Source: a virus
DNA: 31,123 bases
Direction: 5' to 3' (one strand)
IMG/VR virus record: IMGVR_UViG_3300025168_000387
Location: 1 to 31,123 of that record
Made by a program: the position numbers and the translations under genes
Part shown: piece by piece, positions 4,737-28,750 of the stretch
How positions within the stretch are numbered: position 1 is the stretch's first letter
Layout of the letters: the number at the start of each line of letters is the position of its first letter
Notes under the pieces: generated by a model
What the model was told of the DNA's origin: nothing
Database searches by the model: none
The model's input: only the letters and a program-made list of their open reading frames with translations

Positions 4737-5024
4737 ATGATGAGACTACTAGTAGAAGAAGAGTATGGCTTTAAGTATTGGCAATGGGAAGTCGATGCAC
4801 AATGGAATGAAATTACAGACCTACTCGACGAAAAGATTAACCGCTCATTCTGGTATTCTTCCGACCTTCCTTCCCAATTTCCCGATGGGGAATGGACTGA
4901 ACTTGAGTGGGAAGACTACAGAGAACTTCTTTTTGGCGAGGAGTTCGATGCTTGGTGCCACTTACATACACACGAAGATTCGAAGTATGCTCTTCGAGAA
5001 CAAATGGAGATTCACGATGAATGA
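4737..5024 (+). CDS. Acidic hypothetical protein (95 aa)
   Basis: Begins two bases after the previous stop. The product is acidic and very rich in tryptophan and tyrosine (KYWQWEVDAQWNE). It overlaps the next gene by 8 nt (5017-5024). Not recognised. Confidence 0.6.
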   Translation: MMRLLVEEEYGFKYWQWEVDAQWNEITDLLDEKINRSFWYSSDLPSQFPDGEWTELEWEDYRELLFGEEFDAWCHLHTHEDSKYALREQMEIHDE

Positions 5025-5199
5025 AGAAAAAGTCTTCGTGTTTCTCGATAAACTTCGAAAGTCTGGCAAAACCAATATGTATGGCGCCAGTCCGTATATT
5101 CGAGAAGAATTCGCGTGTACTCGATATGAAGCGAACCGCCTTCTGGTGAAGTGGATGGAAAATTTCGGCGAGAGTCTGAAGCGTACTGGTGACCCTTGA
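5017..5199 (+). CDS. Small helical protein of T4-like marine phages (60 aa)
   Basis: The ATG at 5017 lies inside the end of the upstream gene. The product has the pattern F-L-x-x-L-x-x-S-G-x-T-N-M-x-G-A-x-P-Y-I, followed by a helix with R-Y-E-A-x-R-x-L-(L/V)-x-W-M. I recall this pattern as a small conserved protein of unknown function in cyanophages and related T4-like phages. It may be a minimal helix-turn-helix, but this is inference. A longer in-frame extension back to 4765 overlaps the previous gene and is rejected. Confidence 0.65.
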   Translation: MNEEKVFVFLDKLRKSGKTNMYGASPYIREEFACTRYEANRLLVKWMENFGESLKRTGDP

Positions 5200-12528: not shown

Positions 12529-12539
12529 TATACATAATT

Positions 12540-12848
12540 TGGTATCGTTGATATCGGAGTAAAAGTTATTGAACACGGGAGTTCGAATCTCCCCGCCTCC
12601 ACCAGAGGCATCCTAGCCTAGTTATATTCTTACATAACACATTAATTTTCAGAAAGATTAGGTACACAATGCTAGGGTGTCTCTGATGGGGGCGAATGGA
12701 ATCGATTTGATAGCAAGTAACGAAGAAGTAGATACCCAAGGTTGGCAACGAGGCTTGACAAAAGCGTTGCAAAAACTTAACTGACAACAGTTATTCAATG
12801 GCCGCTTGAGCGGCTACGGACCCTTGGATGGGGGTAACCTCATTCAAG
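12540..12848 (+). ncRNA. ssrA: Circularly permuted two-piece tmRNA
   Basis: The acceptor piece comes first. It ends with T-arm GGGAG-TTCGAAT-CTCCC, then CGCCTCC and ACCA at 12601-12604; CCA is encoded. An intervening segment (12605-12687) forms a 13-bp helix, 12605-12617 with 12671-12683. The coding piece starts at 12688 with GGGGGCG, which pairs over 7 bp with CGCCTCC, followed by the D-like segment ATGGAATCGATTTGATAG. Helix 2 (CAA-G-TAAC with GTTATTG) links the pieces. A PK1-like stem (GCAAC/GTTGC with GCTT/AAGC) precedes a tag frame at about 12780-12809 that reads (T)DNSYSMAA then TGA, compare DENYALAA of E. coli. The stop lies in the hairpin GCCGC-TTGA-GCGGC. A 12-bp hairpin with a GTAA tetraloop (12821-12848) ends it. 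The 5' end of the acceptor piece is approximate. Confidence 0.88.
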
Positions 12849-12869
12849 GCATTTAAAAGGAGACTTATT

Positions 12870-21208: not shown

Positions 21209-21287
21209 TATCTGGCATATATAATAATGCCCGCGTAGTTTGGGCCTCAAGGCGAGAACTATAAAATCTTACATAAGGAGAATACCA
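21209..21287 (+). other. Short leader with hairpin before the beta-helix gene
   Basis: The 79-nt gap has TAGTT (21236-21240) pairing with AACTA (21257-21261) around an inner GCC-TCAA-GGC hairpin. AAGGAG stands at 21275-21280. A leader or processing site is possible; no -35/-10 pair is obvious, though CATATATAATAATG (from 21216) could serve as a late-type element. Confidence 0.35.
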
Positions 21288-23096
21288 ATGATTGATATTC
21301 TTCTCGCAGTTGCCACGATGCAACAAAATGACTTTTCTTATACCCCAGAAGAAGAACCCCCTATTGCATACTTCGATGTTGTTCCACAACAGGATGTGAC
21401 AGGGGTTTTTGAATTGGGAGCAGTTGCCTACCATTTGGAAGGCATAGACCGTGTAGAGTACACGGTGACCCGAGAGGGTTTCGTTGGTGATTGGAATCAC
21501 GACGGAGTTACAGACGGGCTAGACCTTAGCATCCTCCTCGAAAGATGGGGACAAGGTGTAAGTGGTCGAGAAGTATCTCGTCTACTAGGCGCGTGGGGAC
21601 AATCTGTCTCACACAGACCACAAGTTATCACCGTCACAGAACAGACCTTGAATCCTCGCACGAACGAGTTGGAGTATTGGTTTGCTCTTGATACTCGTTC
21701 ACATCCAGACACGAAGATTACGGTATCGGCAGAAGTGTTCGGTACAATGGGTCCAAGTGTTATTCTCGACCGCGATGTGTGGGACGAGAATTATCCATTA
21801 CCTCAGTATAGTGGGGTAAATCTATTCAGTACCAACACGGGTAATCTCTGGCAGAAAAGAGAACTTTACATTTCCCCCAATGGTAATGATGAGACTGGTG
21901 ACGGTACGCGGGACAACCCATTGAAGGGACTCCACGCGGCACTTCGTTACGGTCTGCAACAACCATACGCTGAGATTGGTGGAACCATTGTCTACCTACT
22001 CGAAGGCGAACACACTATCGATGCAAGCGGCGGATGGCCACTTCGTTCGTTCCGTCAGAGTGATGGAAGGTACGTTACAATTACACCTGCACCCGGCGTT
22101 GCATCGGCAGACTGTAAGATTGTTGCAAGTGAAGCGACCACACTCCTGAACAGTGGTCTGACTCGATTCCGAGATGTGTTTGTTGAAACCGACCAAGAGA
22201 ATATCTTGAAAGGTGGAACAAACCGCTATGGTGGACGATGGTACGATGGTTGTATCATCAAGGGACACGATTACACCGAAGACTTTGACCCTATATTTGT
22301 TACAGGTAAGGGTGGTTTCCAGTGGTACACTGATGTTCTACATACATTTACCCAAGAAGGTACGACTGGGTTGATTATGCGTAATTGCGTTCTTGACCAC
22401 GTTTCGTGTGATGTTCTAGAGTTGCACTATGCACAGTTGCTTTTAAGTATTGAAGTGACTAATCATAATCCAAATGCATTACTTGACCCTTCTGGATGTC
22501 ATACTGATTATATGCAATATAACAGCATCGATTATATTCACCAGAATGTAATTCTTCGTGACATCTATGCAAACGATAGTTGTATGCAACAGGGTGTACA
22601 CTCTTGTCCTGGCCAGGGTGGTGTTCATAACTCTGCGTGGGTAAACGTACAAATCTCGAATACGGGTGGTAACGGTTTACCTGAGTGTGATATCTCCGCT
22701 CTTATCTGGAGATGGTGTGGTCCTGCCAAGAATAACTTGTTCAAGAGTTGTATGTTCCAACAGAAGCAGAGCAATCTAGGCGATAGGCACAGTACATTTA
22801 TATGGGACAAATTCAACGAGGACGGTACACGGAACGAAGACGGACCGTGGACCTGGGATGAAGACAGAGGAATCTTTAAGTTTGTCAATGTCAAGATTGA
22901 AGACTGTTTCGAGAATTGGGAAAGAACTCAACCTCTTTTCCCAGCACCTACTGCTGGAATGCCGTGGACGTACTATGGTCCCGATGAGTTGATGTGGGAT
23001 TCTGATATGAACGATGGGATTCAGGAGAATCCTTTCGGACCTAACGACCCGTGGTTATGTCAAATCACTGGCGTTTACTATACACAAACGGAGTAG
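21288..23096 (+). CDS. Beta-helix protein with dockerin-like repeat
   Basis: The product is 602 residues, start supported by AAGGAG. Residues 66-104 contain a dockerin-type unit: GDWNHDGVTDGLDLSILLERWG has the calcium-loop D-x-N-x-D-G-x-x-D, followed by a degenerate second half without acidic loop residues (EVSRLLGAWG). From residue 193, LYISPNGNDETGDGTRDNPLKG opens a right-handed beta-helix of the pectate-lyase/tail-spike type (S-P-x-G-x-D-x-x-G-x-G-(T/S)-x-x-x-P). The short hydrophobic start (MIDILLAVAT) is not a clear signal peptide, so it could be a virion tail-spike or a secreted enzyme. The catalytic residues are not assigned. The adjacent gene also has dockerin repeats. Confidence 0.75.
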   Translation: MIDILLAVATMQQNDFSYTPEEEPPIAYFDVVPQQDVTGVFELGAVAYHLEGIDRVEYTVTREGFVGDWNHDGVTDGLDLSILLERWGQGVSGREVSRLLGAWGQSVSHRPQVITVTEQTLNPRTNELEYWFALDTRSHPDTKITVSAEVFGTMGPSVILDRDVWDENYPLPQYSGVNLFSTNTGNLWQKRELYISPNGNDETGDGTRDNPLKGLHAALRYGLQQPYAEIGGTIVYLLEGEHTIDASGGWPLRSFRQSDGRYVTITPAPGVASADCKIVASEATTLLNSGLTRFRDVFVETDQENILKGGTNRYGGRWYDGCIIKGHDYTEDFDPIFVTGKGGFQWYTDVLHTFTQEGTTGLIMRNCVLDHVSCDVLELHYAQLLLSIEVTNHNPNALLDPSGCHTDYMQYNSIDYIHQNVILRDIYANDSCMQQGVHSCPGQGGVHNSAWVNVQISNTGGNGLPECDISALIWRWCGPAKNNLFKSCMFQQKQSNLGDRHSTFIWDKFNEDGTRNEDGPWTWDEDRGIFKFVNVKIEDCFENWERTQPLFPAPTAGMPWTYYGPDELMWDSDMNDGIQENPFGPNDPWLCQITGVYYTQTE

Positions 23097-23099
23097 AAT

Positions 23100-23687
23100 T
23101 TGAAGCAATTCATTTACGGACTCGTGGCAGCCTTCTGCGTCACTTCGGTGGCGCAGGAGGTTTGTCGTCCCCCATTAGTTTCCTTTGACGTTCACCGCGA
23201 ACAACTGAAAGATGGTTGGTTGTACACCACAGGTGGAACAGCATATGAAACAAGAGTTACACAAGTTGATTACTATGACAATCGACGTATTGTTGATACT
23301 TTATTTTCATCACAAGGACAAGTTACACTCACAAATGTATCATCGACTTCTCGTATCATAAAGTATAGGCATCGTGTGTCTATCAAGAGAGGCACTTATA
23401 CTATATCACAAGACTCTACGGACTATGAAGTGTGTGTCGATGATGGACAGGTAATATTCTATTACGAATCTCCAGCATTACAGATTGGTGTTCCATATGT
23501 GCAGGAGTGGACGTACTCAGTAGAGATACAACCGTATGGTGACTTCAACAATGACGGAGATATCAATGGTAGTGATTTAGGAATGATGTTTGCCAACTGG
23601 GGGATGGTTGGTGTAACAGATATCAATAATGATGAAATCACTGATGGTATTGATTTAGGAATTCTATTAGAAAATTGGACTGGTTAG
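23100..23687 (+). CDS. Secreted protein with C-terminal dockerin domain
   Basis: The product has 195 residues and starts with TTG at 23100, with GGAG 6-7 nt upstream. Residues 1-19 form a signal peptide (MKQFIYGLVAAFCVTSVAQ). Residues 20-140 are beta-rich and unrecognised. Residues 146-195 carry two dockerin-type calcium repeats: GDFNNDGDINGSDLGMMFANW and DINNDEITDGIDLGILLENW, both with D-x-N-x-D-x-x-x-x-x-D-L spacing. This layout, ending after the second repeat, is common in secreted planctomycete proteins. Its partner would be a cohesin-like protein that is not visible here. It overlaps a converging gene by 4 nt. Confidence 0.78.
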   Translation: MKQFIYGLVAAFCVTSVAQEVCRPPLVSFDVHREQLKDGWLYTTGGTAYETRVTQVDYYDNRRIVDTLFSSQGQVTLTNVSSTSRIIKYRHRVSIKRGTYTISQDSTDYEVCVDDGQVIFYYESPALQIGVPYVQEWTYSVEIQPYGDFNNDGDINGSDLGMMFANWGMVGVTDINNDEITDGIDLGILLENWTG

Positions 23688-27637: not shown

Positions 27638-28750
27638 TCAGAAAGAAATCTGAATTTGGGTGCGTAGAACGTACTCACCTGAGTCGCCTGAACGCCATCC
27701 AGTCTCACCCAAGTCCCAAGCACCGTTAATGCCATTAAGTGCATAACCGAGGTCGGTTGTCCACTTGACATTATCATTGATGAAGTAGTTTCCACCAACG
27801 GTAAATGTGCTTAGATTCTCGTCGAAACCTTCAAGTTCACCGTACTCATATGCAACGAAACCTTGGAAGTTCTCGAAGCAGAAGTATCCTGCCTGAACAG
27901 TTGCACCCCAGTTGTCGCCAGCGTCTCCGCTAGTTGCAACATAAGCCGCAGTCAGGTCAAGACCACCTGTAGATACCTTGGTATCGAGGGTGTATGTGGT
28001 GTAGTCAGAATCAACCAAATCGTTGTACGAAATGGCTGCACCAACATTCCACCAGTCGAGTACATCGACACCAAAACGAGCAGTAAAAGCCTGTCCGTTC
28101 TGAACGCCTGCACCATTGGCAGTGTTGAACCCATCAGTATATGCACCAGCAAAATCGAATCGACCGAAGTCACGACTCCACTGAATACCCTGTGAACGTC
28201 CCTGTCCAAACGTATTTGCTACGATTGAACGGTCAGTCATAAGGGTGTCCTGTTGTGCAACAAGGACTTCACGCATAAAGGGTGATTTGAACTGTCCTAC
28301 GCGGAAAGTTCCACCGAAAAGACCTCCTTGTGCATACGCATCCTTGAGGTCGAAAGTGTTTGTGCTGTCACTCCATTGACCGCTTACCTTATACTCCCAG
28401 TCGTAAATATCACCAGAAAGAATAAGTCTTGCACGGGGAACATTGAAACCGTGATTGGATTCAAGTCCACCGCCACCGCTATACGAATAGCGAGTCTGTA
28501 GGAACCCACCAAGGTTTACAGTTACGGGAGAGTTGCTCCCCTGAAACATTGTGCGGGTTTCGGCATCAGCGAGAACTTCACGAACGAGAGCCTTTGTGTA
28601 CTCTGCTCGTTGTTCTGCTTGCTCCATACGGTCTGCTCTTGCACGAAGTTGTGCAGGAGTCATATCATCTGCAAATGCAGGTGCGGCGAAAGTAATCGCC
28701 ACCAGTGCGGCAACGATGCCGCCATAAATTGTCATCTTCTTCTTACTCAT
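27638..28750 (-). CDS. Outer-membrane porin, OprO/OprP-like
   Basis: The product is 370 residues. Residues 1-27 are a signal peptide ending in APAFA. Residues 30-62 form a charged helix, probably a coiled coil for trimerisation or cell-wall contact. The rest alternates beta-strands with short turns (NLGGFLQTRYSYSGG, DIYDWEYKVSGQW, GGTFRVGQFKSPFMRE) and ends in phenylalanine (QIQISF), the assembly signal of outer-membrane beta-barrels. The pattern NLGG-F-x-Q-x-R-Y and the GQFK-x-P motif fit the phosphate-selective porin O/P family. Its presence in a phage suggests a change of host permeability or surface. It follows a small membrane gene, with a terminator-like hairpin between them. GGAG precedes the ATG. 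Confidence 0.85.
   Translation of the reverse strand: MSKKKMTIYGGIVAALVAITFAAPAFADDMTPAQLRARADRMEQAEQRAEYTKALVREVLADAETRTMFQGSNSPVTVNLGGFLQTRYSYSGGGGLESNHGFNVPRARLILSGDIYDWEYKVSGQWSDSTNTFDLKDAYAQGGLFGGTFRVGQFKSPFMREVLVAQQDTLMTDRSIVANTFGQGRSQGIQWSRDFGRFDFAGAYTDGFNTANGAGVQNGQAFTARFGVDVLDWWNVGAAISYNDLVDSDYTTYTLDTKVSTGGLDLTAAYVATSGDAGDNWGATVQAGYFCFENFQGFVAYEYGELEGFDENLSTFTVGGNYFINDNVKWTTDLGYALNGINGAWDLGETGWRSGDSGEYVLRTQIQISF

Follow-up and report, generated by a model that had tools for sequence, protein, structure and literature searches.

The locus considered here raises the question of whether a phage gene in which the acceptor end precedes the coding part is a genuine two-piece tmRNA and, if so, how it came by its degradation tag. 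The window, that is, the whole stretch of 31,123 nucleotides that was analysed (IMG/VR record IMGVR_UViG_3300025168_000387), is a 31-kb viral fragment, and a reading of its sequence alone had proposed a circularly permuted tmRNA in it. We consider it probable that the gene is a working, phage-encoded tmRNA of this kind, and that within its phage group the tag and 3′ end were exchanged together as one module.

Identity and anatomy of the gene

Positions 12541-12809 (+) matched the Rfam family RF04321 (tmRNA_permuted) over the full model (1-213) with 64.8 bits against a gathering threshold of 47 (E 1.5e-10, computed over 31 kb versus 4227 families). Independently, ARAGORN called a permuted tmRNA (tmRNA*) with the tag DNSYSMAA on the window, and de novo folding of the precursor gave the permuted tmRNA arrangement. 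The proposal of a circularly permuted, two-piece tmRNA gene in a phage was thus confirmed. The gene extends over 12541-12850 (+), its conserved 3′ part ending at about 12850. RF04321 merges the alpha (RF01849), beta (RF01850) and cyano (RF01851) types, and the window gene shares with it the tRNA-like domain, the order of acceptor piece, spacer and coding piece, and every other membership feature that could be tested. The alpha-type and cyanobacterial models, to which the sequence-only reading had looked for a match, failed together with the beta model: none reached its cut-off on the window, the best being beta with 29.2 bits against 84. The window gene also differs from these subtypes in its 8-aa tag with a GAC resume codon and in a 3′ GNRA hairpin.

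All parts lie on the plus strand. The acceptor piece (12541..12604, delimited by the RF04321 alignment; 94-100% identity to the window in six relatives) begins with the 3′ strand of P2 (12541-12546; P2 is GGTATC/GATACC). It continues with the T arm (12577-12581/12589-12593, stem GGGAG/CTCCC), whose loop TTCGAAT fits TTCRANY, and the acceptor 3′ strand CGCCTCC (12594-12600); the discriminator A (12601) and an encoded CCA (12602-12604), placed by sequence and the same alignment, complete it. An intervening spacer of 83 nt (12605..12687) is followed by the 5′ part of the coding piece (12688..12736, RF04321 alignment), carrying the acceptor 5′ strand GGGGGCG, a D-loop-like segment and the P2 5′ strand GATACC (12731-12736). 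The ends that had been read from the sequence were correct, the CCA finishing at 12604 and GGGGGCG beginning at 12688, and the third pair of GGGGGCG/CGCCTCC is a G-U (G3-U70).

An H-type pseudoknot, PK1 (12737..12770), precedes the tag, with stem 1 CAAG/CTTG at 12737-12740/12754-12757 and stem 2 GCAACG/CGTTGC at 12745-12750/12765-12770. The tag frame called by ARAGORN (12783..12809, GAC AAC AGT TAT TCA ATG GCC GCT TGA) ends in AA and a stop, the stop codon lying in the loop of a hairpin (12801-12805/12810-12814) that is kept in relatives. A further hairpin of 12 bp with the GNRA loop GTAA (12822..12849), identified by folding and by pairing in relatives, closes the gene. The acceptor stem, T arm, PK1-like stem and stop hairpin of the earlier reading were all recovered, and P2 was found in addition. 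Its tag, written as (T)DNSYSMAA, stood as regards DNSYSMAA; the resume codon GAC (12783-12785) is most likely where the tag begins, with the spacing UAACU/GAC as ARAGORN has it, and the leading (T) therefore probably lies outside. In tagging, the charged alanine enters first, before the tag residues. At 12778-12793, UAACUG-ACAA-CAGUUA is able to pair as a hairpin across the resume codon; it is kept in the relatives of tag class B (see below) and has a larger loop in contig L126, and it may be a mere reflection of the codons.

Conservation of the structure in phages

The spacer folded with -25.0 kcal/mol (z -4.3), and none of 200 shuffles folded equally well. The 13-bp stem that had been noticed in it (12605-12617/12671-12683) was paired in 100% of the cells among ten viral sequences, with changes on both sides at 6 of the 13 pairs, so that this element was substantiated as well. 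In the same ten sequences all pairs of the P2, T, acceptor and spacer stems were retained, with compensatory changes also in P2. The covariation score was 0.272 versus 0.141 after shuffling and at most 0.079 in slid controls; these sequences are kin, which inflates the base-pair statistics and means that the shuffle counts cannot be read as probabilities; the slid controls agree in direction. In L041 and L044 the strands of PK1 are different yet still complementary, with unchanged spacing (TGAG/CTCA, GCGACC/GGTTGC), and L134 likewise shows such a replacement. The stop hairpin showed a change from C-G to U-A in 4 of 8 relatives. The 3′ hairpin was 100% paired in eight relatives, with double changes at two pairs and the loops GTAA, GCAA and GCGA, which brings the two hairpins to three double-change pairs in total.

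The two-piece phage tmRNA as such is not the novelty for which it had been taken: a 2022 study (PMC9004378) reported it for the ssrA of phage Melnitz and counted two-piece forms in 53 of 133 tmRNA structures from phages, so the class was already known, and many more were seen in IMG/VR. The carrier phage is a marine, T4-like relative of Melnitz and HTVC008M. Its DUF6267 protein has Methylophilales phage Melnitz and Pelagibacter phage HTVC008M as nearest isolates, both of which carry permuted tmRNAs (RF04321 113.4 and 90.6 bits) and, like the window, no SmpB gene that could be found. They differ from the window in their tags (ANDNYVPVDYALAA in Melnitz and ANFNEYALAA in HTVC008M), in an AACAGAA-type 3′ end in place of the GNRA hairpin, and in spacers of 142 nt (Melnitz) and 49 nt (HTVC008M). 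A DNA similarity search in annotated phages returned the CCA end only and no full relative. The lower RF04321 score of the window compared with Melnitz (113 bits) and HTVC008M (91) is what might speak for a decaying relic or a chance match; nevertheless, the compensatory changes, the retention of all pairs across viral relatives and the intact frame make such an origin extremely improbable. The two-piece tmRNA of the window is real and conserved, judging from these patterns, and it probably works.

Tag classes and probable block replacement of the tag module

A search of IMG/VR with the T arm of the window found 13 contigs and two tag classes. Class B comprises DNSYSMAA (window, L114, L116), DNSYAMAA (L117, L121), DNSYSLAA (L041, L044, L062, L106, L118) and GNSFKLAA (L243, read by eye where ARAGORN gave no call), and class A comprises GETQYALAA (L244), GANNYALAA (L069) and GANNFALAA (L095). 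In IMG/VR, every contig matched by the class-B 3′ module, ACGGACCCTTGG..GNRA..AAGGCATT, belonged to class B. Most of the phage relatives that were read have, after the tag, a 3′ end of the CAACAGAA type, an element containing (C)AACAGAA; it is present in L069, L095, L244, L126, Melnitz and HTVC008M and absent in the window, which has its GNRA-capped hairpin at that place. The window gene is, then, a conserved permuted tmRNA without the CAACAGAA-type end that these other phages have.

One comparison was with L244, a syntenic orthologue in which tRNAs for Gly, Ile, Lys, Leu and Arg are followed by a 118-aa ORF, the tmRNA, a small Cys-rich ORF and DUF6267 (65% identity); the order tRNA-Leu/Arg, 118-aa ORF, tmRNA and small Cys-rich ORF is common to the relatives. 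About 2 kb upstream of its tmRNA, L244 also carries a manA RNA motif (RF01745, 67.4 bits, 4842-5046). Between the window and L244, identity was 95% in the acceptor piece, 67% in the 5′ part of the coding piece and 29% in the tag and 3′ region. Between the window and L118 the corresponding values were 59%, 56% and 70%, and the tag-plus-3′ hairpin module of the window also occurs in more distant phages whose acceptor pieces are 59-70% alike. PK1 is alike in L244/L069/L095 and L041/L118, and the window group therefore has its own PK1. A backbone tree in which one split separates the two tag classes was not rejected (AU p 0.34), so one replacement event suffices; two flanking-protein trees placed L244 differently.

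The simplest reading of these sequences is that the tag-plus-3′ module was replaced as a block by recombination, possibly in either direction. Fast divergence under selection could have produced the same differences, as tags and PK1 change quickly across phage tmRNAs and the AU test allows a single split. Nevertheless, divergence is an unlikely cause: within one and the same gene, identity is 95% in the acceptor piece and 29% in the tag and 3′ region, and phages whose acceptor pieces are just 59-70% alike have almost the same 3′ hairpin. The earlier suggestion that the phage has its own degradation tag finds support at the level of sequence, the tag module differing block-wise between sister phages. 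The novelty appears to lie in this modular exchange, in which the tag-encoding part seems to have been swapped between otherwise near-identical virus genes; of all the findings, it is this swap between orthologous phage loci that merits further work. With their differences concentrated in PK1, the tag and the 3′ end, these orthologous tmRNAs amount to a natural swap experiment, which could test the matching of degrons to host proteases and adaptors, the differential marking of stalled phage and host proteins, or the evasion of host recognition.

Origin of the tag, predicted activity and carrier phage

In a search of 84,980 species of bacteria and archaea, TAACTGACAAY..TAY..AA, the tag context, occurred only in standard one-piece tmRNAs, carried by Clostridia, Flavobacteriales and one gene in two MAGs (Spirochaetes and Latescibacterota). 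No permuted bacterial tmRNA had the tag context of the window in these species, and a degenerate form of the tag pattern, spaced for 8 aa, matched no bacterial genome. ADNSYAMAA and GENNYALAA-like forms are found among the one-piece tags of Bacteroidota, and a permuted tmRNA was present in 0 of 148 sampled Bacteroidota genomes. The phage tags thus suggest a resemblance to those of one-piece hosts, although short tags converge easily. Across its DNYSYAMAA tag, the permuted tmRNA of phage contig L126 shares 34 identical nt with the bacterial one-piece tmRNA L208; the latter stands in two MAGs, one labelled Spirochaetes and the other Latescibacterota, so that one of its two copies is probably misbinned.

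It is conceivable, albeit doubtful, that the phages swap the tag and 3′ end as a degron cassette, grafting tags like those of one-piece hosts onto a permuted backbone; if true, the two-piece design would be usable in bacteria whose own lineages never possessed it. Alternatively, a one-piece tmRNA of a host could have been circularly permuted independently, without descent from the alpha, beta or cyano types, which would constitute a further two-piece origin. Such an event would fit the context TAACTGACAAC...TAY in the one-piece tmRNAs listed above and in no permuted bacterial one, the 34 nt shared around the tag by L126 and the Spirochaetes/Latescibacterota gene, and the failure of every subtype model on the window. 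This origin is improbable, since on the same backbone L069, L095 and L244 bear the CAACAGAA-type end together with tags that begin with G, AACAGAA stands at that place in Melnitz and HTVC008M, and L126 does pass RF01849 (alpha_tmRNA), if barely (50.2 bits, cut-off 50); a DN start could also have arisen by the loss of two codons from an ANDN tag.

Another phage-borne permuted tmRNA was found in Maribacter phage Panino (PP540027, 27590-27798, equivalent to L275:17591-17799; RF04321 62-64 bits), whose RNR is 50% identical to that of the window. Unlike the window gene, it has a 5′ segment, GGATTTGACAGCA, resembling Flavobacteriales one-piece tmRNAs, with the predicted tag GKVMNVSFAPTVRQFA, and an independent permutation is possible in this case. 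Panino suggests that permuted tmRNA reached phages of Bacteroidota, the phylum in which no sampled genome had one.

The window gene likely functions in trans-translation with the SmpB of the host. No SmpB was found in 14 records (the window and relatives), and host SmpB would therefore have to serve. A single transcript would start just before 12541, probably from a late-type promoter. A T4-late-promoter-like -10 element, TATACATA (12529..12536, +), is the putative promoter, 4 bp before the acceptor piece, and L095 has an exact TATAAATA at the equivalent position; L244 and the L041-type relatives have sigma-70-type TTGAC-/TATAAT promoters there instead. The window holds six TATAAATA/TATACATA sites, a count not above chance, the other five each preceding an ORF start by no more than about 50 bp. 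Late expression is what this motif would imply; by contrast, an early promoter and a glutamine riboswitch were described for Melnitz ssrA (PMC9004378).

In the folded transcript the spacer stem would stack near the acceptor stem, tRNA-processing enzymes would cleave after the CCA (12604) and before GGGGGCG (12688), and the spacer would presumably be removed, leaving two RNAs that the acceptor stem and P2 keep together. This two-piece tmRNA would be charged by host AlaRS via G3-U70 and brought by host SmpB to stalled ribosomes, where Ala-DNSYSMAA, a short C-terminal degron, would be added to the stalled chains; the phages of the group would exchange such degrons on one tRNA-like backbone. Alternatively, the chief role of the tRNA-like part might be to block trans-translation in the host as a decoy, the tag being secondary, as the phage tmRNA of DS6A, which has no CDS, inhibits endogenous tmRNA in E. 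coli (summarised in PMC11915505). A decoy is quite unlikely here, given that every relative read has an open tag frame, that this frame ends in AA, that the stop is kept in a covarying hairpin and that the tag changes as an intact unit.

Besides the tmRNA, the carrier encodes DUF6267, a cobS-like ATPase, a nucleotidyltransferase/RimK fusion, a class II RNR, a GMP reductase and five tRNAs. The indications as to its host are mixed. Shine-Dalgarno sites preceded 13 of 27 window genes versus 2 in the background and 0 of 15 in Panino. A Bacteroidota host, hinted at by DNSYAMAA/ADNSYAMAA-like tags and the Maribacter-phage RNR, is disfavoured by this use of Shine-Dalgarno sites, which Panino lacks. 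Planctomycetota are at most a tentative candidate for the host, in view of the porin and the dockerin-like repeats. No counterpart of the porin-like protein (27638-28750, -) was found among 50,697 phage records; bacterial porins on plasmids matched it weakly, and L118 has a 36% relative. Two adjoining ORFs (21240-23687, +) contain the dockerin-like repeats (e.g., DFNNDGDINGSDLGMMFANWG), the second with a Pfam Dockerin_1 match below threshold. Additionally, one phage protein (16519-18576, +) fuses cytidylyltransferase-like, RimK-type ATP-grasp and Zn_protease/RloA-like domains.
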